From positions 1-64,000 of the forward strand of contig NZ_BJWH01000014.1 in the NCBI RefSeq assembly GCF_007990265.1: a DNA stretch of 64,000 nt. Reading direction: 5' to 3'. A program made the position numbers and the translations under genes. This DNA is from Cellulomonas terrae (GTDB taxonomy: Bacteria > Actinomycetota > Actinomycetes > Actinomycetales > Cellulomonadaceae). Below, in pieces: positions 2,997 through 16,700 of the stretch. The notes under the pieces were generated by a model. It was not told the origin of the DNA. It made no database searches and saw only the letters and a list, made by a program, of their open reading frames with translations. Positions within the stretch are counted from its first letter, which is position 1, and every line of letters begins with the position of its first letter.

Positions 2997-3021
2997 GCGC
3001 CCCTCCTCTCGTTCCTGATCC

Positions 3022-3052
3022 ACGGTAGGAGTTGACGCAGCGTCAAGGTCAA
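3022..3052 (-). promoter_or_regulatory. MerR-type promoter with 19-bp spacer and dyad
   Basis: Read on the minus strand: -35 TTGACC (3047-3052), a 19-bp spacer (3028-3046), and -10 TACCGT (3022-3027). The spacer contains the perfect dyad TTGACGCTGCGTCAA (3032-3046). A 19-bp spacer with the dyad inside it is the hallmark of MerR-activated promoters. The -35 overlaps the stop codon of the upstream HAD gene. Confidence 0.8.
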
Positions 3053-3720
3053 GCCCGGGGCACCAGCACTCCGTCGAGGCGTGCCAGGACCGTGCGCCGC
3101 AGGTCCTCGACGGTGTCGACGATGACCGCCGCACCGGCGGTCGTGAGCTCGCCGGGTGCTGCGTAGCCCCAGGTCACGCCCACGCAGTCGATGCCGTTCT
3201 CGCGCGCGCCGTGCACGTCGTGCTCGCGGTCCCCGACCATGAGAGCGGCCGACACCGGGCCCGGCTCCGCCGCCAGCGCCCGGGCGATGACGTCCGCCTT
3301 CGTTCCCGACTCGTCGAGCGGGGCACCGAAGACGCCGTCGAGGTGCGGGGTGAGGCCGAGGTCCGCGCAGATCGGCACCGCGAACACCTCCGGCTTGGAC
3401 GTCGCCACGACCAGCCGGCAGCCCGCGGACCGCAGGTCGGCGAGCAGCTCGGGGATGCCGTCGAACACCGTCGCGTCGTGCATCCCCGTCGCCCCGAAGT
3501 CCTCGCGGTACGCGCGGACGACCTCGTCGAGCCGGTCCTCGGGGACGCCGTGCGCGCGGAGGCCGTCGTAGATCGGGGGGCCGATGAACGTGCGCAGCTC
3601 CGTGGGGGTCGGGACGGGCAGGCCGCACCGGCGGAACGCGACCGCGATCGAGGCCGTGATGCCGGAGATGGAGTCGATGAGCGTGCCGTCGAGGTCGACA
3701 AGGACGAGGGGTGAGGTCAC
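3049..3720 (-). CDS. HAD-family phosphatase (phosphoglycolate phosphatase-like)
   Basis: A 223-residue haloacid dehalogenase-superfamily hydrolase. Motif I is DLDGT (D9 nucleophile, D11 acid/base), motif II is VVATSK near residue 107, and motif IV is GDREHD near 165. A helical cap lies between motifs I and II (about 15-85), as in Gph/PpaX-type phosphatases. It probably dephosphorylates a small metabolite; the substrate cannot be assigned. It starts with GTG and diverges from pnuC 38 bp away. Its stop codon lies inside the merR promoter, so the two minus-strand genes may be read together but merR also has its own promoter. Confidence 0.8.
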   Translation of the reverse strand: MTSPLVLVDLDGTLIDSISGITASIAVAFRRCGLPVPTPTELRTFIGPPIYDGLRAHGVPEDRLDEVVRAYREDFGATGMHDATVFDGIPELLADLRSAGCRLVVATSKPEVFAVPICADLGLTPHLDGVFGAPLDESGTKADVIARALAAEPGPVSAALMVGDREHDVHGARENGIDCVGVTWGYAAPGELTTAGAAVIVDTVEDLRRTVLARLDGVLVPRA

Positions 3721-3744
3721 ACCACCGATCCTCTCTCACCGCCG

Positions 3745-3750
3745 TAGGGT
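3745..3750 (+). promoter_or_regulatory. -10 element of pnuC, leaderless arrangement
   Basis: TAGGGT lies 8 nt before the GTG start of pnuC, so transcription would begin at or next to the start codon. No convincing -35 is visible. Confidence 0.5.
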
Positions 3751-3758
3751 GTCCGCTC

Positions 3759-4349
3759 GTGAGCTGGGTCGAGGTCCTCGGGTTCGTCAGCGGTGCGGTG
3801 TGCGTCTGGCTCGCGACCCGGCAGAACGTGTGGAACTTCCCCGTCGGCATCGCGAACAACCTGCTGTTCCTCTGGTTGTTCACGGACGCCGGCCTCTACG
3901 CGAACGCCGGGCTGCAGGTGGTCTTCGCCGCCCTCGCCGTGCTCGGGTGGGTGTGGTGGGTGCGCGGCGGGCCGGACCGTCGAGCGCTCGCGGTCACCCG
4001 GACACCCCGGTGGGTCTGGCCGGCCGGTGCGGCCGTGCTCGCCGCGGCCACCGTCGGGCTGACCGCGCTGCTGTCCACCACGGCGGGGTCCGCGGCGCCG
4101 TTCTGGGACGCGCTGACGACGTCCTCGAGCCTCGTCGCGCAGGTCATGCTGGGCCGCAAGTGGCTCGAGAGCTGGGCCGTGTGGATCGGCACCGACATCG
4201 TCCTCGTCGGCCTCTACGCCAGCCAGGGGCTGCACCTCACCGCGGTCCTGTACGCGGGCTTCATCGGGCTCTGCGTGCTGGGATGGCGCGACTGGCGGCG
4301 GGCGCTGGCGACCGCTTCCGAGCCCGCGCCCGTGGCGGTCCCGGCATGA
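3759..4349 (+). CDS. pnuC: Nicotinamide riboside transporter PnuC
   Basis: A 196-residue polytopic membrane protein with about seven hydrophobic segments. PnuC hallmarks are WNFPVGIANNLLF near the N-terminus, a WWV segment, and GRKWLESWAVWIGTDIV in the second half. PnuC proteins import nicotinamide riboside by facilitated diffusion, made irreversible by intracellular phosphorylation. The adjacent nadR encodes that kinase, and its ATG overlaps the pnuC stop (ATGA). The start is placed at GTG 3759 because the protein then begins VSWVEVLGF, typical of the family. An in-frame start further upstream (3711) would overlap the divergent HAD gene. Confidence 0.9.
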   Translation: MSWVEVLGFVSGAVCVWLATRQNVWNFPVGIANNLLFLWLFTDAGLYANAGLQVVFAALAVLGWVWWVRGGPDRRALAVTRTPRWVWPAGAAVLAAATVGLTALLSTTAGSAAPFWDALTTSSSLVAQVMLGRKWLESWAVWIGTDIVLVGLYASQGLHLTAVLYAGFIGLCVLGWRDWRRALATASEPAPVAVPA

Positions 4350-5413
4350 GCCACGGCCTCGTCATCGGGAAGTTCTACCCGCCCCACGCGGGTCACCTCG
4401 CGCTCGTCCGGTCCGCGCTCGCCCGCTGCGACCGCGTCACCGTCCTGGTCCTCGGGTCGTCGCAGGAGAGCATCCCGGCCGAGGTCCGGGCGGGCTGGCT
4501 GCGCGACGAGCTGCCCGGCGCGCACGTCGTCGCCGGCCTCGACGACGAGCCCGTCGACTACGCCAGCGAGACCGCCTGGCGGGCGCACACCGCGATCATC
4601 GAGGACGTGCTGGACGCCCCCGTCGACGCCCTGTTCAGCTCCGACGACTACGGCGAGGAGCTCGCCCGCCGGCTCGGCGCGCGCTGGGTGCAGATCGACC
4701 CCACCCGGTCCGGCACGCCGGTCAGCGCCCGGGCCGTCCGCGCCGACCCGGCCGCGTACTGGTGGGCGCTGCCTGCGGCTGTCCGCGCGTGGTTCGTGCG
4801 ACGGGTCGTCGTGATCGGGGCCGAGTCGACCGGCACGACGACGCTCGCCGAGGGCCTCACCGCGCACCTCGGGCTGCCGACGGTCCCGGAGTTCGGGCGG
4901 GAGTGGTCGCAGGTCCGGCCCGGCGGCTTCGAGGCGCCGTGGCACCCCGCGGAGTTCGACCTCATCGCCCGCGAGCAGGCGCGCCTCGAGGACGACGCCG
5001 CCGCCCGCACCCCGGTCCCGCTGCTCGTCTGCGACACCGACGTGCTCGCGACCGCGGTCTGGCACGAGCGCTACGTCGGCGGACCGTCGCCGTCGGTCGA
5101 GGCTCTCGCCGCGGACCGCGTGCCCGACCTCTACCTCCTGACCGGCGACGAGATCCCGTTCGTGCAGGACGGGCTGCGCGACGGTGAGCACCTGCGGCAC
5201 GCGATGCAGGACCGCTTCCGGGAGGTGCTCGCCGCCCAGGGCGCCCCGTGGGTCGAGGTGCGGGGCACGCCCCGCGAGCGGCTCGCGCAGGCACTGGCCC
5301 TGGTCGAGCCGCTGCGGGACCGGCCACGGTGGGTGGCCGAGCCGATGGAGCAGCGCCACGAGGTGGTCCCCGACCTGGTCGCCGCACTGTCTCTGCCACA
5401 CTCGGGCGCGTGA
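4346..5413 (+). CDS. nadR: NadR: NMN adenylyltransferase / ribosylnicotinamide kinase
   Basis: A 355-residue bifunctional NAD-salvage enzyme. The N-terminal nucleotidyltransferase carries GKFYPPHAGH (the HxGH motif) and an ISSTxxR-like segment, GTPVSARAVR. The C-terminal domain resembles the ribosylnicotinamide kinase of NadR and starts at a P-loop near residue 158. That P-loop reads GAESTGTTT: position 164, where a Walker A lysine is expected, is threonine (codon ACG). No helix-turn-helix precedes the transferase, so unlike the enterobacterial NadR it is not expected to act as a repressor. It works with PnuC by trapping imported riboside. Its stop overlaps the GTG of the next gene. Confidence 0.87.
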   Translation: MSHGLVIGKFYPPHAGHLALVRSALARCDRVTVLVLGSSQESIPAEVRAGWLRDELPGAHVVAGLDDEPVDYASETAWRAHTAIIEDVLDAPVDALFSSDDYGEELARRLGARWVQIDPTRSGTPVSARAVRADPAAYWWALPAAVRAWFVRRVVVIGAESTGTTTLAEGLTAHLGLPTVPEFGREWSQVRPGGFEAPWHPAEFDLIAREQARLEDDAAARTPVPLLVCDTDVLATAVWHERYVGGPSPSVEALAADRVPDLYLLTGDEIPFVQDGLRDGEHLRHAMQDRFREVLAAQGAPWVEVRGTPRERLAQALALVEPLRDRPRWVAEPMEQRHEVVPDLVAALSLPHSGA

Positions 5414-7005
5414 CGACGCACCCCGCCGAGACGTTCTCGCAGGTCTCCGCCGCCCCGACGCGCGCGGGCACGGGAGCGCCGCGCGCCCGCCTGGACCTCG
5501 ACGTCGACCAGCTCTTCTCGGGTGCCGACGCGCACACTGGTGCCGTCGGCCCTGCGCTCGACGAGAAGCTGCGCCAGGCCTACTTCTGGATGGTCAACCA
5601 CGGGATCATCAGCCCCCACTACGACGTCGAGTTCCACGACCCGGACCGCCCGCGCACGCGCTTCCGCCTCGGTGACTCCAAGGCCGAGGTGGACCTGCCC
5701 ACCGACCAGTCGTACTCCTCCTTCGTCCTGCTCCCGCTGCTCACGTTCGCCGTGCGCGGCCGCTGCCTGCTCGTCGGCGGACCGGGCCGCGGCAAGACGG
5801 CGAGCGCCGTGCTCATGGGGGTCCTCGCGGGCTACCCGGTGCGCGAGGTCCGCCGGGCCATGCAGCACGGCCACCCGCAGCTCACCGTCCAGGACATGTT
5901 CGGCACGCCCCTGCCGAGCGACCTGGTCGCCGCGAAGAGCCTCGCGGACATCGACGTCGCCTGGCGGTCGTGGCTGGGGCGGCGCGTGAAGATCGTCGAC
6001 GAGTACAACCGCATCCCGACGCGCACGCAGTCCGCGCTGCTCACCGTGCTCGCGGACGGCTACGTCGAGGTCTTCGACCAGGTCTACGAGACCGGTGCCG
6101 CGGCCTGGTACCTCACCGCGAACGACGACGCCGGTGGCGGGACGTTCCAGGTCGTCGACGCGCTGCGCGACCGCATCGACGTCGTCGTGAAGGCGCTGTC
6201 GTTCAACTCGCGCTTCGTCGGGGACCTCGTCGACCGCGCCGAGCGCCGGCTGCGACCCGAGGAGCACGTCCCGCCGGCGGTCGTCTTCGACGCCGACGAG
6301 CACGACCGGCTGCACCGCGAGGTCGTCGCCGTCCCCGTGCCGCAGCACGTGCGGCGGCGGCTCGAGTACTTCGCCGCGCAGCTCGAGCTCGCGGAGAAGG
6401 GTGCCGTGCAGCTCGAGTACCGCACCAAGGACACCGTGCGGCTGGCAGGGGAGGACCCGCACCGGGTCCTCGCGCAGGACACCGGCCGTGACCTCCGTGC
6501 GGACATCGGCGCGCAGACGCTCAACGGGCTGTCCGTGCGTGCCCTGCAGTCCCTCGTGCTCTACGCCAAGGCGATGGCGTACTTCCGCGGGCAGCCCGAG
6601 GTCGGGCTCGACGACCTGCGTGCCGTCCTGCCGTTCGTCCTGCACGACAAGCTGCAGCCCGACCTGGCGTCCCCGTCGTTCGAGGACCCGGCCCGCGAGG
6701 CCCTGCGGATCGACCGGGTCTCCTGGCTGCGGGACCTCTTCGACAGCGCGTGCGTGCTCTACGACGCCGAGGGCCTCGACACCGACGACCCCGTCGGCGC
6801 GGTCCTCGACGAGCTCCACGCCGGCCTCGACGGCCTGCCCGAGGCCGAGGTGCGCCGCCGCCTCGCCCACATCGAGGGGATCCTCGCCGGGTGGCAGGAC
6901 ACCACCAAGCTGCACGGCAGCCTCTACGAGGACGCGCTCGCCCTGAAGTACGCCCACCAGCGCTACTCCGGCTACCTCGCGTGGCTGCGCTGGAGCGGCG
7001 CGTGA
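5410..7005 (+). CDS. MoxR-type AAA+ ATPase
   Basis: A 531-residue AAA+ ATPase of the MoxR/RavA group. About 110 unassigned residues precede the core. Walker A is GGPGRGKT near residue 123. The Walker B region is VKIVDEYNR (D197, E198), a variant of the usual DEINR. The sensor segment is AWYLTANDD, followed by a C-terminal lid. MoxR ATPases act as chaperones with vWA-domain partners, here supplied two genes downstream. It starts with GTG inside the nadR stop (GTGA) and ends inside the start of the next gene. At 531 residues it is clearly longer than the usual 300-350; the C-terminal ~150 residues (LDDLRAVLPFVLHDK onward) are helical and unassigned. Confidence 0.85.
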   Translation: MTTHPAETFSQVSAAPTRAGTGAPRARLDLDVDQLFSGADAHTGAVGPALDEKLRQAYFWMVNHGIISPHYDVEFHDPDRPRTRFRLGDSKAEVDLPTDQSYSSFVLLPLLTFAVRGRCLLVGGPGRGKTASAVLMGVLAGYPVREVRRAMQHGHPQLTVQDMFGTPLPSDLVAAKSLADIDVAWRSWLGRRVKIVDEYNRIPTRTQSALLTVLADGYVEVFDQVYETGAAAWYLTANDDAGGGTFQVVDALRDRIDVVVKALSFNSRFVGDLVDRAERRLRPEEHVPPAVVFDADEHDRLHREVVAVPVPQHVRRRLEYFAAQLELAEKGAVQLEYRTKDTVRLAGEDPHRVLAQDTGRDLRADIGAQTLNGLSVRALQSLVLYAKAMAYFRGQPEVGLDDLRAVLPFVLHDKLQPDLASPSFEDPAREALRIDRVSWLRDLFDSACVLYDAEGLDTDDPVGAVLDELHAGLDGLPEAEVRRRLAHIEGILAGWQDTTKLHGSLYEDALALKYAHQRYSGYLAWLRWSGA

Positions 7006-7946
7006 CAGCGGTGCTCGACCGGGCGACCGCGTTCGGCCGCTTCGTGGCGCTGGACCGCGCCTTCGTCGACGACGCCCTGGGCGCAGCCGTCGCGCGCTGC
7101 GGCGACCCGGAGGTCGTGGGCGCCTCCGTCGTGGACGTCGCTGCAGTCGGCGACGGGCTGGCCGGCGACGGCGACCTCGACCCGCTGGTCGGGCGCGCGC
7201 TGCTGACGGCCGCGACGGACCTCGCCGCACGCGGCCGCTGGCGGGCCGGCACCGCGGAGCGTGCGGCCGTCCTGGAGGTCGTGCCCCGGACGGGCACGCT
7301 CGTGCGGGCGAGACCCGACGTGGTCGTGCCGCTGCTCGTGGCGTCCGCGCGCACCGTCGAGCGCAGCGCCGACCGCGCGCTCCTCGCCGACCTGCTCGCC
7401 GCAGCACCGGCCTCGCGGGACGCCGACGAGCTGCGGGCGACGGTCCTCGTCGCGACCTGGCGCGCCGGGGCCGTCCGCTTCCGCTCCGCCGCGCTCGCGG
7501 CCGCTGCCGGGCTCCCCGCACCTCTGGCGGTCGCGGCTCTCGGGCTGCCTCCGGGCACCGAGGCGAGACCTGTGCTCGACGCGCACGCGGTCGACCGGTG
7601 GTGGTGGCCCGGGCAGTCGCAGGCGACGGGTGTGCTGCGTCGGGTCGGCGGCTTCCGGGGCTTCGGTGGCCCGTGGCTGGCGGTGCCGCGCGTCTCGTCG
7701 GGGGCACCCTGGGGCTGCCACGTCCGGACCGACGACGAGTGCTGGGCCGTGCTCGCCGACGTCCACGGCAGCGCCGTCGTGCGACTGGACTCCACGGACG
7801 TGCCCCAGCGCGCGCCTGCGCCGCACCTGCCCGTCCCGTGGGACGACGAGGTCACGGGGTGGTCCACGGTCGACGACGACCCCCGGGTCGTCCTGGTCAG
7901 CCGGCGGCACTCGTACTCGGTCGACGTCGTGCGGCTCGCGTCGTGA
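7002..7946 (+). CDS. Unknown protein of the MoxR-vWA module
   Basis: A 314-residue soluble protein I do not recognise. The N-terminal 200 residues are Ala/Leu/Arg-rich and predicted helical, without a signal peptide or membrane segment. The last 110 residues change character, being rich in Trp, Gly and Val with alternating hydrophobics (RWWWPGQSQATGVLRRVGG, DDECWAVLADVHGSAVV, RRHSYSVDVVRLAS), and suggest a compact beta domain. It sits between the ATPase and the vWA gene with GTGA overlaps on both sides, so it is probably made with them, perhaps as an adaptor. Known MoxR-vWA ternary systems often carry such poorly conserved partners, but I cannot tie it to a named family. Confidence 0.6.
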   Translation: MTAVLDRATAFGRFVALDRAFVDDALGAAVARCGDPEVVGASVVDVAAVGDGLAGDGDLDPLVGRALLTAATDLAARGRWRAGTAERAAVLEVVPRTGTLVRARPDVVVPLLVASARTVERSADRALLADLLAAAPASRDADELRATVLVATWRAGAVRFRSAALAAAAGLPAPLAVAALGLPPGTEARPVLDAHAVDRWWWPGQSQATGVLRRVGGFRGFGGPWLAVPRVSSGAPWGCHVRTDDECWAVLADVHGSAVVRLDSTDVPQRAPAPHLPVPWDDEVTGWSTVDDDPRVVLVSRRHSYSVDVVRLAS

Positions 7947-9664
7947 CGTCCCTCGCAGAGCTGCAGGAGCGCTGGCGCGAGACGTGGCCCGCCGCGCTCG
8001 CCACCTGGGGCCGCACGTCGCGGCTGCACGCACCGGTGCTGCACACCGAACCGTGCGGCATGCCGTCGTGGGCGTGGTACTCCCTCGACGACGTCGAGGT
8101 GCACGTCGACCTGACCGTGGTGCAGGAACGGCACGTGGAGGACCACGCGCTCGCGGTCCTCGCCCACGAGATCGGCCACCACCTGCTGGCGCCGGTGGAC
8201 CTGGCGTCGCACGTGCGCATCGCCGCGCGCGTCCAGATCGGGCTCGTCGACCTCGACCACCTGGTCGGGCTCGTCTCCAACCTGTGGTGCGACCTGCTGA
8301 TCAACGACCGGCTGCAGCGACAGCTCGGGGTGGACCGCGCGGCGCTGTCCGCGGCGGTCGGTCCGCCCGACCCGGACGACACCCTCATGCTCCTGGTCCT
8401 GCGCACGAACGAGATCCTCTGGGGCCTGGCGCGCGGCACCCTCGTCGGCGACAACGTCACCCCCGACGACCAGGCGATGCTCTGCTCGCGGCTCGTGCGG
8501 GCCTACACCCGCGACCCGGTCGGTGGCGCCGCGGGCTTCGCGCTGCTCGTGCGGTCGACGATCCCGGTCGAGGAGCTGCGGGCTGCCCAGCGGCCGAGGA
8601 GCGTCGTCGCGTGCGGTGGCGCCGCGGGCGGCGACGGCTCCGTGCCGTACGGCGTCGCGACCGACCCGACGCTCGGGGCGCCCGGGATCCACCCGTCGCG
8701 GGACCCGCGGGTCGTCGGTGCCGCTCTCGTCGAGGAGACCGCCCCCGACGAGACCCCGGGGGCGGCCACCGGGAACGCCCTGATGCCGGGGGCGCTGCAC
8801 ACCGTGCTCCGGTCGCTCGGCTTCGCGACGACCGCGGAGCAGGTCGCCGTCGCCTGGTACCGGGAGCACGCGGCCCGCCACCTGGTGCCGTTCCCGAGCC
8901 GACCCCGGCCCCGGCGGTCCGACGAGCTGCTCGCCGGGCTCGAGCCGTGGGAGGTCGGCGACGACCTGTCGACCGTCGACTGGACCGGCACGATGACGGC
9001 GTCCCCGGTCGTGGTGCCCGGGATGACGACCGTGCGCCGGGCGTACCTGGACGACCCCGAGGAGGCCGTCGAGGTCCGTCCGGTCGACCTCGACCTGTAC
9101 CTCGACTCGTCGGGGTCCATGCCCGACCCCCGCAGGACGCGCGCGCCCATCGCGCTGGCCGGCGCGATCCTCGCCCTCTCGGCGCTGCGTGCGGGCGCAC
9201 GGGTGCAGGCCACGACGTGGAGCGGTCCCGACCAGGTGGCGGGGACGGACGGCTTCACGCGCGACGCGGACGCGGTGCTGAGGGCCGTCGTGGCGTACTT
9301 CGGCGGGTCCACGGCCTTCCCGCTCGACCTGCTGCGCCGGACCCACCTCGGAGACCCCGCGACGGGTGCTGAGCCCACGCGGCGCGGCCCGACCCACATC
9401 GCCGTCATCTCGGACGACGGGGTCTCGACGATGTTCCGGCAGTACGGCGAGCCCGTAGACCCGACGGCAGGCGAGGCCCTGCGCGCGGCGGACGGGGGCG
9501 GCACGCTCGCGCTGCAGGTCACCCCCGAGTCGGCCCTGCTCTTCGAGGCCATGGCCGACGGCTACGCCGTGCACAGCGTGGTGACCGAGGACGACCTGAT
9601 GACGTTCGTGCGCCGCATGGCCGCGAACACGTGGGGAGGTGACCGTGGAGCGTCGACCCGATGA
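7943..9664 (+). CDS. Zincin-like metallopeptidase plus vWA domain protein
   Basis: A 573-residue protein. The N-terminal domain contains HEIGHH (residues 75-80), the zinc-binding HExxH helix of zincin peptidases, resembling the putative peptidase region of MoxR-associated DUF2201-type proteins. The middle (about 215-330) is a low-complexity linker. The C-terminal domain is a von Willebrand factor A fold with an intact metal-ion-dependent adhesion site, LYLDSSGSM (D388, S390, S392), a later GGSTAF threonine, and THIAVISDDG. vWA proteins are the usual partners of MoxR ATPases. The pairing implies ATP-driven remodelling or metal loading of this protein. Start GTG 7943 overlaps the preceding stop; its 3-prime end overlaps the next gene by 20 bp. 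Confidence 0.83.
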   Translation: MTSLAELQERWRETWPAALATWGRTSRLHAPVLHTEPCGMPSWAWYSLDDVEVHVDLTVVQERHVEDHALAVLAHEIGHHLLAPVDLASHVRIAARVQIGLVDLDHLVGLVSNLWCDLLINDRLQRQLGVDRAALSAAVGPPDPDDTLMLLVLRTNEILWGLARGTLVGDNVTPDDQAMLCSRLVRAYTRDPVGGAAGFALLVRSTIPVEELRAAQRPRSVVACGGAAGGDGSVPYGVATDPTLGAPGIHPSRDPRVVGAALVEETAPDETPGAATGNALMPGALHTVLRSLGFATTAEQVAVAWYREHAARHLVPFPSRPRPRRSDELLAGLEPWEVGDDLSTVDWTGTMTASPVVVPGMTTVRRAYLDDPEEAVEVRPVDLDLYLDSSGSMPDPRRTRAPIALAGAILALSALRAGARVQATTWSGPDQVAGTDGFTRDADAVLRAVVAYFGGSTAFPLDLLRRTHLGDPATGAEPTRRGPTHIAVISDDGVSTMFRQYGEPVDPTAGEALRAADGGGTLALQVTPESALLFEAMADGYAVHSVVTEDDLMTFVRRMAANTWGGDRGASTR

Positions 9665-10283
9665 CCTGGAGCGGGTCCGCGGCGGTGAGCCCGACGGGCC
9701 CGCGCTGGCCACCCTCGTGCACCGCCTGGCGCTCGCCCCGCCCGATCTGTTCGAGCCGTCCGTGAGCGTGTCCGCGCTGGTCGCGGACGTCGCCGTGTCC
9801 CTCGACGGGACCGTCCTGGACCGGCGCGTGCTGCGCGCGCTCGACGCGGACCTGACGGGTCCGGCCGATCAGGGGCTGCACCGGGCGCCGCTCGTCGGAC
9901 TGGTCTGCTGGCTGGTGCTCGACCCGGCAGTGCTCGGGGCGCCCGGCGTGCGCGCGGCGGCGGCCGGCGGGCGGACGGCATGGTTCGTGCGCATCGTCGA
10001 GGGCGTGCAGCGCGTGCTCGCCGGGCAGCGCCCCGACCGGGAGTGGGTGCAGGACGACGTGGCCCGCGAGGAGCTCGCCCGGGCGTTCTGCCGGCTCGGC
10101 GGGGTGCTGCCCGCGGGCGAGCGCGCCGAGACGTCCGACGACCGCTGGCTCGCGGTCAGCTCGGCGTACCAGCGCAAGGTCGCGCAGTCGATGGCCGTCG
10201 AGGTCGCGCGCGCGGAGGAGCTCGCTCGGGCGCTCGCCGAGCAGCGGGCGAAGGAGGCGGCGGCGCAGTATGCGAACTACTGA
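9645..10283 (+). CDS. Unknown helical protein of the MoxR-vWA module
   Basis: A 212-residue protein of unknown function, largely helical, with no signal peptide. The conserved-looking core includes LLGxP-like turns around APLVGLVCWLVLDPAVLG and a C-terminal charged helix (about 175-212, EEL/RALAEQRAKEAAAQ) that could form a coiled coil. GTG 9645 is preferred because GGGGAGG ends five bases upstream; GTG 9639 lies inside that SD. It overlaps the vWA gene by 20 bp and the adenylating enzyme by 14 bp. Position suggests an accessory subunit of the same machine; no family match is claimed. Confidence 0.6.
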   Translation: MERRPDDLERVRGGEPDGPALATLVHRLALAPPDLFEPSVSVSALVADVAVSLDGTVLDRRVLRALDADLTGPADQGLHRAPLVGLVCWLVLDPAVLGAPGVRAAAAGGRTAWFVRIVEGVQRVLAGQRPDREWVQDDVAREELARAFCRLGGVLPAGERAETSDDRWLAVSSAYQRKVAQSMAVEVARAEELARALAEQRAKEAAAQYANY

Positions 10284-11724
10284 CGAGACGACGCCGGTCC
10301 CGGACGTCCCGGACCCGGCGCTCGGCGAGTACACCGCGATGGGCGCGGTCGCGCTGACGGACGCGGAGCGCTGGCCGACGCTGGACGCCGACGGGCTGGC
10401 ACGGGTCGACGCGTGGCGTGGACGTCCCGACGCGCCGGTCTGGGTGCACGCGACGGGGGACCGCCTCGATGCCTCCGACCTCGCCGCCCTCGAGCAGGTG
10501 CGCGTGCGGCCGGCGGGAGGTCCGGCGGAGCCGGCCTGGGTCGCCGAGCTCGTCGCCCGCGTCCACGACACCGTGCCGCGCTGGCGACGAGCCGCGCGCG
10601 AGGGGCGCAGCGGCCCGACGACCCCGCTGCACGACCTGCCGACGACCACCCGCGCCGACCTCGCGGACGCCGCGGCGCACGTGCCGCTCGACGTGCCCCT
10701 GGACCGCGTGCTGGAGGGCAGCAGCTCAGGTCACACCGGCGCCGCGCTGAACGTGCCGCTGCACCCGGTGTCGGTGGCGGCGGACCTGGTGCTGCTCCAG
10801 CACCTCGTGACCGCGGCGGGCGCCGACTGGCAGCCGGACCCGGACCGGCTCGGCCTGGTGAACCTGGTCGACCAGCGGGCGTCGTTCACGTACGTGTCGG
10901 CGATGACGGCGTTCGGTCGACCGTCCGACGCGCCCGTCCCGGTGATGGCCCGGGTCAACCTGGACCCGTCGGTGTGGCGGGCCGCCGGTGACCGCGAGCG
11001 GTTCCTGTCCGCGGCCGACCCGCAGGTGATCAGCAGTTCGACGCTCCCGCTGCTGCGGCTGCTGGACCTGACCCGCGACGGGCTGGACCTCCACCCGGTC
11101 GCGGTCGTCAACGGGGCGACGGACCTGCCGCCGGCTGTCCGGGACGCCGCGGCGGCCGCGTGGGGCTGCCCGGTGATCGACCTGTACGGGCTGCGCGAGA
11201 CGGGCCCGGTCGCGGCGTCGGCCGACGGGGACGGGCACGTCGTCGTGCCGCGCCGGGTGTGGGTCGAGATCCTCGACGACGCGGGACGTGCGGTGCCGGA
11301 CGGGGAGCGCGGCGAGGTGGTGGTGACCGTCGACGAGAACCCGTACCTGCCGCTGCTGCGCTACCGCACCGGTGACACGGCCGCGCTGGTCCGGGACCAC
11401 CGCGGCACGGTGCTCGTCGGCCTGCAGGGGCGGGCGCCCGTGCGCTTCCTCGCGGCCGACGGGTCGTGGCACTCGTCGATCGACGCGACCCAGCTCCTCC
11501 AGGCGTACGGCCTGGCCGGGTGGGAGCTCGTCCAGGCCGCCGACGGCACGGTCCGGCTGACCGCGCTGCCGCTCGTGGGCGTGACCGTCGACCCGGCCGC
11601 CGCCGGTGACGCGATCGCTCGCTGGCTCGACCGTCCGGTCCGCGTCGAGGTCGTCACCGACCCGTCGGCGCTCGGCCCGGGCAAGCCACGCCGCTTCCGT
11701 TCGGACGCTCAGGAGGACTCGTGA
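10270..11724 (+). CDS. ANL-superfamily adenylate-forming enzyme
   Basis: A 484-residue protein with the layout of acyl/aryl adenylating enzymes, closest in feel to PaaK/CapK-like ligases. A3-like P-loop SSSGHTGAALNV is near residue 150, A5-like DLYGLRETGP near 305 (aromatic plus Glu), A7-like YRTGDTAAL near 365, A8-like GLQGR near 382, and a C-terminal GPGKPRRF that could supply the A10 lysine. The P-loop lacks the usual trailing lysine, so activity is plausible but not certain. Family members activate a carboxylate as an AMP ester before thioester or amide formation. Coupling to a MoxR/vWA module is unusual and hints at a modification reaction. AAGGAGG lies 12 nt before the ATG. Confidence 0.75.
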   Translation: MRTTDETTPVPDVPDPALGEYTAMGAVALTDAERWPTLDADGLARVDAWRGRPDAPVWVHATGDRLDASDLAALEQVRVRPAGGPAEPAWVAELVARVHDTVPRWRRAAREGRSGPTTPLHDLPTTTRADLADAAAHVPLDVPLDRVLEGSSSGHTGAALNVPLHPVSVAADLVLLQHLVTAAGADWQPDPDRLGLVNLVDQRASFTYVSAMTAFGRPSDAPVPVMARVNLDPSVWRAAGDRERFLSAADPQVISSSTLPLLRLLDLTRDGLDLHPVAVVNGATDLPPAVRDAAAAAWGCPVIDLYGLRETGPVAASADGDGHVVVPRRVWVEILDDAGRAVPDGERGEVVVTVDENPYLPLLRYRTGDTAALVRDHRGTVLVGLQGRAPVRFLAADGSWHSSIDATQLLQAYGLAGWELVQAADGTVRLTALPLVGVTVDPAAAGDAIARWLDRPVRVEVVTDPSALGPGKPRRFRSDAQEDS

Positions 11725-13460
11725 CAGAGGTGCCGCGCGTGCGCGTCAACCAGGTCGGCTACCTGCCCGACGGGCCCAAGGCGGCCACGCTCGTGACCGA
11801 CGCGACCGCCCCGGTGCCGTGGCGGCTGCTGCGCGACGGGGTGGCCGTGGCGCAGGGCGAGTCCCAGCCGCGCGGTCACGACCCCTCGGCGGGCCTGGAC
11901 GTGCACGTGGTCAGGTTCGACGAGGTGCGTGAGGTCGGCTCGTTCGTGCTGGAGGCGGACGGGGCGACGTCCGACCCGTTCGCCGTCGCAGAGAACCTCT
12001 ACGACGGCCTCCGCGTCGACTCCCTCGTCGTGTTCTACGGCCAGCGCAGCGGCGTCACGATCGACGAGGCGCTCCTCGGCCCCGGCTACGGACGCGCCGC
12101 CGGTCACGTCGACGTCGCACCCAACCGTGGCGACGGTGCGGTCCCGTGCCTCCCGGCAGGCCACGCGACGACCGCGGACGGGGTCGACCTGTACGACGGC
12201 TGGACCGCCGGCTACGTCCTCGACGTGACGGGCGGCTGGTACGACGCGGGCGACCAGGGCAAGTACGTGGTCAACGGCGGCATCGCCGTCGCGCAGCTGC
12301 TCGGCCTGTACGAGCGCGCGCTGCGGACGGGGACGACGGACCCCCTGGGCGACGGGTCGCTGCGCGTGCCCGAACGCGGGAACGGCGTCCCCGACGTGCT
12401 GGACGAGGCGCGGTGGGAGCTGGAGTGGATGCTCCGCATGCGCGTCCCGGCGGGGGAGCCGTACGCAGGGCTGGTGCACCACAAGGTGTCCGACGAGCGG
12501 TGGGTGCCGCTGCCGACCCTGCCCGCCGACGACCCGCAGCCGCGCTACCTGCACCGGCCGTCGACGGCGGCCACGCTCAACCTGGCGGCCGTCGCGGCCC
12601 ACGGCGCCCGGCTGTTCGCACCCCACGACGCGGCGTTCGCGGAGCAGCTGCTCGGCGCCGCGCGCGATGCCTACGACGCCGCGCACGACCACCCGGTGCT
12701 GCTCGCGCCCGACACGAACGTCCTCGCGGACGCCGGGTCCGGCCCGTACGACGACGCCGACCTGGACGACGACCGCCTGTGGGCGGCCGCCGAGCTGTTC
12801 CTGACGACGGGGGAGGACCGGTACGCCGACGACCTGCGGGCGAACCCGTGCACGCCCGTGTTCCGGCCCGAGGGCTTCGACTGGAACCACGTCGCGGCCT
12901 GGGCCTACCTCCAGCTGGCGACGGTGCCCAGCGCCCTGCCGGAGCGCGACACCGTCCGGGCCGCCGTCGTCGAGGCCGCCGACGCGCTGCGGGACCAGCA
13001 GGCCACGCAGCCGTTCGGCCACCCCTACGTCCCGACGACAGGACGGTACGACTGGGGCTCCAACGGGCTGGTCCTCAACAACCTCGCTCTCCTCGCGGCG
13101 GCGCACGAGATCACGGGCGACCCGGCGTACCGCGACGCCGTCCTCGGGGGCGTCGACTACCTGTTCGGCCGCAACGCCCTCGGCGTCTCCTACGTCACCG
13201 GGTACGGCACGCGCGACGTCCGCAACCAGCACAGCCGCTGGTACGCCCACCAGCTCGACCCGAGCCTCCCGCACCCGCCCCGCGGCACGGTGTCGGGCGG
13301 TCCGAACTCCGACTGCCCGGACCCCGTCTCGGCGGCGCTCGCGGGCAGCCCGGCACAGTGCTGCTTCGTCGACGACATCGGCGCGTACGGCGTGAACGAG
13401 ATGACGATCAACTGGAACTCCGCCCTCGCGTGGGTCGCGTCGTACCTGGCGCGTGGGTAA
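11721..13460 (+). CDS. Glycoside hydrolase family 9, predicted cytoplasmic
   Basis: A 579-residue GH9 enzyme. An N-terminal Ig-like module (VRVNQVGYLPDGPKAATLV, residues 5-90) precedes the (alpha/alpha)6 barrel. Catalytic signatures are intact: GGWYDAGDQGKYV (base aspartates), QHSRWY, and the terminal VNEMTINWN (acid glutamate). There is no signal peptide: the protein starts MTEVPRVRVNQ. GH9 enzymes cleave beta-1,4-glucans; an intracellular one most likely acts on imported cello-oligosaccharides. Start GTG 11721 has AGGAGG five bases upstream and overlaps the stop of the adenylating enzyme. It ends the eight-gene overlapping chain. Confidence 0.88.
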   Translation: MTEVPRVRVNQVGYLPDGPKAATLVTDATAPVPWRLLRDGVAVAQGESQPRGHDPSAGLDVHVVRFDEVREVGSFVLEADGATSDPFAVAENLYDGLRVDSLVVFYGQRSGVTIDEALLGPGYGRAAGHVDVAPNRGDGAVPCLPAGHATTADGVDLYDGWTAGYVLDVTGGWYDAGDQGKYVVNGGIAVAQLLGLYERALRTGTTDPLGDGSLRVPERGNGVPDVLDEARWELEWMLRMRVPAGEPYAGLVHHKVSDERWVPLPTLPADDPQPRYLHRPSTAATLNLAAVAAHGARLFAPHDAAFAEQLLGAARDAYDAAHDHPVLLAPDTNVLADAGSGPYDDADLDDDRLWAAAELFLTTGEDRYADDLRANPCTPVFRPEGFDWNHVAAWAYLQLATVPSALPERDTVRAAVVEAADALRDQQATQPFGHPYVPTTGRYDWGSNGLVLNNLALLAAAHEITGDPAYRDAVLGGVDYLFGRNALGVSYVTGYGTRDVRNQHSRWYAHQLDPSLPHPPRGTVSGGPNSDCPDPVSAALAGSPAQCCFVDDIGAYGVNEMTINWNSALAWVASYLARG

Positions 13461-13477
13461 AGGGCTGGACGTCCGGG

Positions 13478-13483
13478 TATCCT
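13478..13483 (+). promoter_or_regulatory. -10 element of ileS
   Basis: TATCCT lies just upstream of the T-box RNA and about 18 bp after the end of the GH9 gene. The predicted transcript start is near 13490. No clear -35 is seen. Confidence 0.45.
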
Positions 13484-13487
13484 GGGC

Positions 13488-13703
13488 GGCACAGGCGTCG
13501 ACCCGGCCATCACCGGTGAGCCTCCGGAAGAACAGGCCGCGCGAGCGGCCCCAGTAGAACCGGACGGGCAGGCCCGTCACAGCCGCAGAGAGTGGTCGAC
13601 GACCCCCCGGGGACGCCGGCAAGCGAGGTGGTACCGCGGTCGTCCCCGTCCCGGGGGTGGTCGTCCTCGCGGCCGTGAGCGAGATCGACCAGGAGAACCG
13701 ACG
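13488..13703 (+). promoter_or_regulatory. Ile-specific T-box riboswitch (translational type)
   Basis: The 5-prime leader of ileS holds the invariant T-box AGGTGGTACCGCGG at 13626-13639, which pairs with the uncharged tRNA acceptor end. An Ile codon ATC at 13509-13511 sits before CACCGGTGAGCCTCCGGAAG, matching the short stem I of actinobacterial ileS T-boxes. Downstream, C-rich and G-rich blocks (13600-13660) and the AGGAG at 13691-13695 fit a sequestrator/anti-sequestrator that hides the Shine-Dalgarno. No terminator with a U tract is present, so regulation of translation initiation by tRNA-Ile charging is expected. Confidence 0.92.
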
Positions 13704-16700
13704 GTGACTGCCGCACCGCGCTACCCGCTGCACCGCCCCGACTCGTCCGTGCCCGCGTCGCCGGACCTGCCCGCCCTCGAGAAGGACGTCCTCGCGTTCT
13801 GGGCGGAGGACGGCACGTTCCAGGCGTCGATCGACGCGCGCGAGGCCGGCGAGCACGGCAGCAACGAGTACGTCTTCTACGACGGACCTCCGTTCGCCAA
13901 CGGCCTGCCGCACTACGGCCACCTGCTGACCGGGTACGCCAAGGACGTCGTGCCTCGCTACCAGACGATGCGCGGCCGCCGGGTCGAGCGCCGGTTCGGC
14001 TGGGACACCCACGGGCTCCCGGCCGAGCTCGAGGCGCAGCGCCTGCTGGGCATCACGGACACCTCCCAGATCGAGGAGATGGGGCTCGCCGCGTTCAACC
14101 GGGCGTGCCGCGAGTCGGTGCTGCGGTACACGGGCGAGTGGCGCGAGTACGTGACGCGCCAGGCCCGCTGGGTCGACTTCGACCACGACTACAAGACGCT
14201 CGACGTGACGTTCATGGAGTCGGTCCTCTGGGCGTTCAAGCGCCTCTACGACCAGGACCTGGCGTACGAGGGCTACCGCGTGCTGCCGTACTGCTGGCGC
14301 GACGAGACGCCGCTGTCCAACCACGAGCTGCGGATGGACGACGACGTCTACCAGTCGCGCCAGGACCCAGCGCTGACGGTGGGCCTGCGGTTGGAGACCG
14401 GCGAGCTGGCGCTCATCTGGACGACGACCCCGTGGACGCTGCCGAGCAACCTCGCGATCGCGGTCGGGCCGGACGTGGACTACGTGACCGTCGAGCCGGG
14501 ACCGGACTCGGCGCTCGCGGGGGAGCGCGTGCTCCTCGCGGCCGCCCGCCTGGGTGCGTACGCCAAGGAGCTCGGGGAGGCCACGGTCGTGGCGACCGTG
14601 AAGGGTGCGGACCTGGCGGGCCGTCGCTACACGCCGCCGTTCGACTACTTCGCCGGCCGCGAGAACGCGCACCAGGTGCTGCTCGCCGACTTCGTGACCA
14701 CGGAGGACGGCTCGGGGATCGTGCACCTCGCGCCCGCGTTCGGCGAGGACGACATGGTCGCGTGCGACGCGGCACGGATCGTGCCCGCGGTGCCTGTGGA
14801 CTCGCAGGGGAAGTTCACCACCGAGGTGCCCGACTACGTCGGTCAGCTCGTGTTCGACGCGAACAAGCCGATCATCGCCGACCTCAAGGCCGGCACCGGC
14901 CCGCTCGCACGCGTCCCAGCGGACCAGCGCGCGGTCGTGGTGCGCCACGAGACGTACGAGCACTCCTACCCGCACTGCTGGCGCTGCCGGAACCCGCTGA
15001 TCTACAAGGCCGTGACCAGCTGGTTCGTGCGCGTGAGCGGCTTCCGCGACCGCATGGTCGAGCTCAACCAGGACATCAGCTGGACGCCGGAGCACATCAA
15101 GGACGGCCAGTTCGGCAAGTGGCTCTCGAACGCGCGCGACTGGTCGATCAGCCGCAACCGCTACTGGGGCACGCCGATCCCCGTGTGGGTCTCGGACGAC
15201 CCCGCGTTCCCACGCGTCGACGTCTACGGCTCGCTGGCCGAGCTGGAGGCGGACTTCGGCCGGGTGCCGACGAACGAGGCGGGCGAGCCGGACCTGCACC
15301 GGCCGTTCATCGACGAGCTCACGCGCCCGAACCCGGACGACCCCACGGGCACCTCGACGATGCGCCGGATCCCCGACGTGCTCGACGTGTGGTTCGACTC
15401 GGGCTCGATGCCGTTCGCGCAGGTGCACTACCCGTTCGAGAACGCCGACTGGTTCGAGCACCACTACCCGGGCGACTTCATCGTCGAGTACATCGGCCAG
15501 ACCCGCGGCTGGTTCTACACGCTGCACGTGCTGGCCACGGCGCTGTTCGACCGCCCGGCGTTCCGCAACGTCCTGTGCCACGGCATCGTGCTGGGCGACG
15601 ACGGGCGCAAGGCCAGCAAGTCGCTGCGCAACTTCCCCGACCCGGCGAAGATGTGGGACGTCTACGGCTCGGACGCCGTGCGCTGGTTCCTCATGTCGAG
15701 CTCGATCCTGCGCGGCGGCAACCTCATCGTGGGCGAGGACGGCATCCGCGACGGGGTGCGCCAGGTGCTGCTGCCGCTGTGGAGCACGTACTACTTCTTC
15801 GCGCTGTACGCGGACGCGGCCGACGGCGGCGCCGGCTACACGGCGAAGGCCGTCGACCCCGCGCGCGCGGCGACGCTCGCACCCATGGACCGGTACGTCC
15901 TGGCGCGCACCCGGGACCTGGTGGAGCGCAGCACGGAGCAGCTGGACGCGTACGACATCTCGGCGGCGTGCGAGAGCATCCGTGAGCACCTGGACGTGCT
16001 GACCAACTGGTACGTGCGCACGCAGCGGGACCGGTTCTGGGCCGAGGACCCCGACGCCTTCGACACGCTGTGGACGTCGCTGGAGACGCTCACGCGCGTC
16101 ATGGCGCCGCTGGCACCGCTGGTCACCGAGGAGGTCTGGCGCGGCCTGACGGGGGGGCGCAGCGTGCACCTGACCGACTGGCCGACGCCGGACCTCGCAC
16201 CCGCCGACGAGGCCCTCGTCGCAGCCATGGACCAGGTCCGGTCCGTCGTGTCGACCGCGCTGGGCCTGCGCAAGGCCGCGGGCGTGCGGGTCCGGCAGCC
16301 GCTGCGCACGCTCACGGTGGCGGTCGACGACTCCGACGCCCTGGCCCCCTACCGCGACCTGCTCGCGGCGGAGCTCAACGTCAAGCGCGTCGACCTGGTC
16401 ACCGCCGACGCCGGCACGGCCGACCGCTTCGGCATCACGCAGCGCCTCGCGGTGAACGCCCGCGCGGCCGGGCCGCGGCTGGGTCGCGGTGTGCAGGCCG
16501 TCATCAAGGCGGCGCGCGCCGAGGCCTGGCGCGTGGACGGGGACGCGGTCGTGGTCACCACCGACGACGGCGACGTCGCGCTGGAGCCGGCCGAGTACGA
16601 GCTGACGACGGTGGTGGGCGGCGAGGGGGGTGCCGCGGCGGTCCTGGCCGGTGGCGGCTTCGTCGTGCTGGACCTGACCCTGGACGACGAGCTGCGGGCC

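Follow-up and report, generated by a model that had tools for sequence, protein, structure and literature searches.

The window analyzed here, a stretch of 64,000 nucleotides from Cellulomonas terrae contig NZ_BJWH01000014.1 (genome G000; positions below are coordinates in this window, whose nearest named relatives are Cellulomonas), contains a unit of seven same-strand genes that is usually inherited together in soil bacteria of the Cellulomonas group. The unit comprises, all on the forward strand, pnuC for a nicotinamide riboside transporter (3759..4349), nadR for a putative nicotinamide mononucleotide adenylyltransferase with a ribosylnicotinamide-kinase-like domain (4346..5413), moxR for a MoxR-class AAA+ ATPase (5410..7005), unkA for a protein with a helical N-terminal part and a C-terminal beta domain (7002..7946), znvWA for a zincin-vWA protein (7943..9664), unkB for a family-less protein with a conserved C-terminal tail (9639..10283), and ANL for a putative PaaK-like adenylate-forming enzyme (10270..11724). 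We tentatively propose that it encodes an ATP-driven activase of the NorQD or CbbQO type, serving the ANL/unkB enzyme of the operon and wired to the supply of nicotinamide adenine dinucleotide (NAD).

The initial annotation had grouped only the last five genes, pointing to GTGA or longer overlaps between them. These overlaps are indeed present (GTGA, 4 bp each, at 7002 and 7943; 26 bp at 9639-9664; 14 bp at 10270-10283), but the boundary was drawn too tightly, as the overlapping chain starts two genes earlier with pnuC and nadR, through 4 bp each at 4346 (pnuC/nadR) and 5410 (nadR/moxR). The overlapping starts are conserved among homologous loci. The GTG start of pnuC at 3759 was inferred from homologues and from the empty site described below; the mechanical open reading frame starts at 3711.

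The limits of the unit are marked by a close relative, G298, whose ileS is 92% identical to that of the window and in which exactly the block from pnuC to ANL is missing, with the flanks intact. Its locus reads up1-merR-HAD and then directly GH9-ileS, the GH9 gene immediately following the sequence that in the window precedes pnuC. Homology between the two stops two codons into pnuC, at 3764, and restarts at 11712, at the ribosome-binding site of GH9, so that these flank limits place the missing block at 3765..11711 (a span without strand). G298 belongs to the family sample and has no znvWA match. Five further regions of 15–19 kb each from the same genus (L164-L168) contain HAD and ileS with neither the block nor GH9; for two of these genomes, G704 and G697, this covers the fetched region only. 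The GH9 cellulase gene (11721-13460) overlaps ANL by 4 bp, but neither it nor ileS qualifies as a member of the unit: in C. humilata (L018) ANL is followed by ileS, and G298 keeps GH9 without the block.

To describe the distribution we used genome samples drawn evenly from larger groups, accepting matches at E values up to 0.001 for znvWA and unkA, 1e-30 for ANL, 1e-50 for nadR, and 1e-100 for moxR; with the strict cut-offs for moxR, ANL, and nadR, weaker paralogues fall outside the counts. Homologues of znvWA were found in 4 of 119 genomes of the order and 36 of 200 genomes of the family, G000 being included in both, and in 18 of 396 genomes of the phylum, namely G000, G467 (full length), and 16 with weaker matches in the families f38 and f44. 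Both moxR and ANL occur in exactly the same 36 family genomes as znvWA (one ANL copy is split over two contigs), and unkA was found in 32 of 180 family genomes, every one a carrier. The remaining carriers (G290, G294, G299, and G303) have unkA at their loci and were therefore presumably absent from the unkA sample draw. In the family sample the occurrence of these four core genes is thus all-or-none, which rules out chance adjacency, and that of nadR is nearly so. The fifth, unkB, looked for at carrier loci only, is present at every uncut one. Altogether 43 carrier genomes were compared (the 36 of the family sample, G013, G063, G115, G467, G706, G699, and Georgenia thermotolerans L021), and in 39 of them the five core genes share the same order and strand; the loci of the other four (G286, G176, G260, and G699) run into contig ends and show the same order as far as visible. 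The five genes keep this order wherever a full-length znvWA homologue sits at an uncut locus, which supports the initial proposal that they form one module.

The two NAD genes follow the core less strictly. In the family sample nadR was found in 35 of 200 genomes, corresponding to 34 of the 36 carriers (not G212 and G225) and one of the 164 non-carriers (G307), an association with a Fisher probability of 7e-35 when kinship is ignored. In 30 of the 36 family carriers no more than 240 bp separate nadR from moxR, in three the distance is 1.3–3.4 kb, in G202 nadR is about 8 kb away on the opposite strand, and two carriers have no nadR. The gene is also adjacent to the core in G013, G063, G115, L021, and G706; the contig of G699 is cut at this point, and in G467 the fetched regions, to which the search was confined, contain no nadR. 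It is conceivable that pnuC-nadR is an ordinary NAD-salvage pair that has only a promoter in common with a five-gene core of unrelated function, as the core stands without an adjacent pnuC-nadR in G212, G225, G202, and G467, and the pair occurs in the non-carriers G307 and G413. We regard this as unlikely given the concentration of nadR in carriers and the exact seven-gene empty site in G298; the correlation of nadR and moxR distances (r 0.87) points the same way, although shared ancestry alone could give it.

Some loci show additional arrangements around these genes. Adjacent pnuC-nadR pairs were seen in G413 (L155) and G307 (L156), both without a znvWA match. In the genus g76 a protein of 930–940 amino acids (family F44) is encoded between nadR and moxR at both fetched loci (L096 and L098), and in G467 (L159) three tandem related proteins of about 926 amino acids, followed by one of 1691 amino acids (as called), are encoded upstream of the core.

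While the flanking genes vary between genera, the block remains constant. In an unrooted tree of moxR, znvWA, and ANL, each multiply sampled genus of the family stays together, with one cross-family grouping (g61 with f8) that may reflect transfer. Across all seven proteins, pairwise distances are correlated (r 0.84–0.94), a pattern that shared ancestry alone could produce. The genus-wise tree and the constant block amid changing flanks fit a unit of long standing that is passed on mainly by vertical descent and has repeatedly been lost or relocated, better than a fast-moving defence cassette. This bears on the conflict or stress role that the initial annotation brought up through the MoxR-vWA ternary systems. 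In such a reading the unit would act against phages or in stress, and NadR-PnuC would replenish NAD under attack. Its presence is patchy and all-or-none, as might be expected of such a system, and MoxR-vWA ternary systems have been proposed to act in conflicts (PMC7159879). Nevertheless, PADLOC models matched 0 families at E values up to 1 in the eight window proteins scanned, and Pfam recognized no effector-like domain in these eight. No relative of znvWA was found in viral contigs or plasmids, where the other module proteins were not tried, and a tblastn search with the window moxR against a phage collection (E 1e-5), likewise tried with this protein only, returned nothing. Together with a tree that holds the sampled genera together, this makes a conflict role distinctly improbable, and the initial hint in that direction found no support.

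The MoxR protein has the Walker A motif GGPGRGKT and the motif [VI]DEYNR in 40 of 40 homologues, and its AAA_lid_2 domain (PF17863) scores 29.9 bits against a cut-off of 22.7; Walker A, Walker B, and a MoxR-type lid place it in the MoxR class. In the 573-residue znvWA protein, the HEIGHH zincin motif (residues 75-80; 8165..8182, forward strand) and an intact metal ion-dependent adhesion site (MIDAS), both reported in the initial annotation, are confirmed by conservation: H75, E76, H79, and H80 are identical in 37 of 37 homologues, as are D388, S390, and S392 of the DSSGS motif (residues 388-392; 9104..9118, forward strand) and T457 and D491, which complete the site. With this DxSxS-T-D MIDAS next to moxR, the two make a candidate MoxR-vWA pair of the NorQD/CbbQO type. 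The invariant residues N113, D117, N121, D122, and E157 are candidates for the third ligand of the putative zincin. Seven of 13 members match Pfam M48, below threshold only. In a Foldseek search of the AlphaFold2 model (predicted local distance difference test score 86.9) against the PDB, the three best matches of the vWA part are all NorD from NorQ-NorD complexes (best E 1.4e-5), and the predicted NorD-like fold fits the suggestion that MoxR would act on the zincin-vWA partner. The PDB fold lists say little on the zincin half of znvWA or on the helical part of unkA, and a viral structure library gave vWA-type matches, some named CobT-like, that superpose poorly, with root-mean-square deviations of about 20–30 for most of the best rows.

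MoxR-vWA pairs are widespread, and few have a known client. NorQ-NorD resembles the window pair in placing a MoxR AAA+ ATPase beside a MIDAS vWA partner; NorD is not known to carry a zincin domain. The window set further differs in adding unkA, unkB, ANL, PnuC, and NadR, and no nitric oxide reductase is among the named genes beside the block. For NorQD, a finger of the vWA protein is described as occupying the pore of MoxR, and in the mechanism proposed there ATP hydrolysis twists a linker and thereby opens the client (PMC13036017). CbbQ-CbbO, the Rubisco activase, likewise combines MoxR with a vWA partner; its client is reported to lie within the same cluster, CbbQO clients to have a common conserved C-terminal motif, and activation to require the MIDAS (PMC5437159). 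In contrast, the window set has a zincin domain and NAD genes, and its client is a candidate only. A vWA co-chaperone with an N-terminal metallopeptidase is found next to MoxR in group 2.2 jumbo phages, where a role in virion assembly is proposed (PMC7824862); this pair shares the MoxR and metallopeptidase-vWA combination, but the window moxR has no match in the phage collection at E 1e-5. DUF2201 proteins (PF13203) have a C-terminal vWA domain and, in three of the seven fetched, HExxH followed by N..D..[IV]N. A local profile alignment with znvWA spans exactly these two motifs, with a probability of only 36%; znvWA has no Pfam match, and a PF13203 search of G000 was empty, placing it outside this family.

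The MoxR-vWA ternary systems also unite MoxR, vWA, and extra proteins, in VMAP, iSTAND, FtsH, and beta-propeller types; the main text of the paper that describes them has 0 occurrences of NadR (PMC7159879). In the window set Pfam recognized no third component or effector, unkA and unkB having no Pfam match (the Pfam coverage of such components is unchecked). The beta-propeller type as defined in that paper does not apply, as the vWA match of znvWA extends to about residue 566-571 with no domain C-terminal to it; the propeller-like blades of the window set are on unkA, not behind the vWA. Related sets occur in the actinobacterial families f38 and f44, in which a full-length homologue of znvWA (hhalign 99.7%) stands beside MoxR, but with the HEIGHH motif replaced, in the 11 sequences printed, by YQLLHY (9), YQMLHY (1), or YQILHY (1). 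In the 14 of these 16 weaker loci that were fetched as long regions (L073-L086), no unkA, unkB, or NadR neighbour was found, and one weak ANL hit (3e-4) occurred in L073. A conserved protein of 281–300 amino acids (F2) follows in 12 of these 14 loci; a single F2 protein was scanned and matched neither Pfam nor NCBIfam.

The two proteins that the initial annotation called unknown, unkA and unkB, belong to no family in Pfam or NCBIfam. The C-terminal beta domain of unkA resembles a two-blade propeller (a weak match), and the protein has a conserved GGFRGFGGPW. In unkB the last 12 sites reach 3.56 bits of conservation against 2.47 for residues 1-180, and the tail KEAAAQYANY (10251..10280, forward strand) is retained also at loci where unkB and ANL do not overlap. 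The AMP-binding family PF00501 matches ANL above its cut-off (37.0 against 29.9), though only over residues 275-352, and the best PDB PaaK chain matches at 3.2e-18, which agrees with its description as an adenylating enzyme. Enzymes of this kind carry the motifs A3, A5, A7, and A10. The A5 Glu and RYRTGD are present in 34 of 34 sequences; the A3 motif is without the lysine found in PaaK, and the A10 lysine is present in only 20 of 34, making the carboxylate activation expected of such an enzyme uncertain.

PnuC matches PF04973 (171.4 bits) and TIGR01528 (87.3 against a cut-off of 42.45), which identifies it as a member of this family. For NadR the TIGR01526 match (4.5e-54) is below its cut-off and that to PF13521 above; PDB NadR chains match with a best E of 8e-42. 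The HxGH motif is intact (HAGH in 34 of 35, HVGH in one), while the Walker A lysine of the kinase domain is absent in 35 of 35, replaced by Thr or Ser (GAESTG[T/S]TT), which makes its ribosylnicotinamide-kinase activity uncertain. This loss was considered as a trait of the module and rejected, as it also occurs in the NadR proteins of two non-carriers, G307 and G413. A NAD riboswitch upstream was also considered; no Rfam match was found at E values up to 1 in window positions 3000-14000, and in seven relatives the only hits at gathering scores were two tRNAs and one Actino-pnp. NadA is encoded in 191 of 200 family genomes, all nine negatives being non-carriers; as all 36 family carriers have it, NadR-PnuC does not replace a lost de novo pathway in this sample. 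This also suits a biosynthetic or cofactor-repair operon, in which NadR and ANL would make or repair a nicotinamide- or adenylate-derived metabolite and the MoxR/zincin-vWA pair would only mature one of them. Such a role would account for a unit that combines a transporter with two enzymes using nucleotides and is inherited mostly genus by genus. Still, the ANL motifs are atypical, and clustering of the flanking genes, without annotation, brought out no other family that accompanies the block from genus to genus; we consider this role somewhat unlikely.

The activase reading that we favour would proceed as follows. MoxR, presumably a hexamer, and the zincin-vWA protein would act as an ATP-driven activase in the manner of NorQ-NorD or CbbQ-CbbO, the MIDAS gripping an acidic residue of the client. 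By analogy with these systems we infer that the two proteins form a complex and that its likeliest client is the PaaK-like ANL enzyme of the operon, partnered by the small protein unkB. The conserved tail at the C-terminus of unkB could serve as a handle, comparable to the conserved C-terminal motif of Rubisco for CbbQO. The unkA protein, with its helical part and propeller-like blades, might be a scaffold, and the zincin might cut the client, or the tail of unkB, as a step of maturation. The part of PnuC and NadR would be to import nicotinamide riboside and make NAD(H) that is used or protected by the ANL/unkB chemistry. A more far-reaching form of this proposal, an activase with a built-in metalloprotease that matures ANL-unkB by way of a C-terminal tag and is dedicated to a new NAD-linked reaction, supplied by an importer of nicotinamide riboside and a NAD-making enzyme of its own, seems improbable to us.

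The first claim, that no described system joins these genes, stands for the whole set: no report joining all seven was found in the open-licence literature, and MoxR and NadR appear together there in only one paper, with NadR in its reference list. It does not stand for the pairing of MoxR with a metallopeptidase-vWA protein, which was already known from jumbo phages (PMC7824862). The unit has sharp limits and is cleanly missing from a close relative, which makes client and phenotype testable by one deletion and a few point mutants. Should the NAD link be functional, AAA+ remodelling, and perhaps proteolysis, would be tied to NAD metabolism, a connection we did not find in that literature; and if the activase, its built-in metalloprotease, and the NAD link all prove true, no AAA+/vWA machine before it would have been tied to the supply of NAD.
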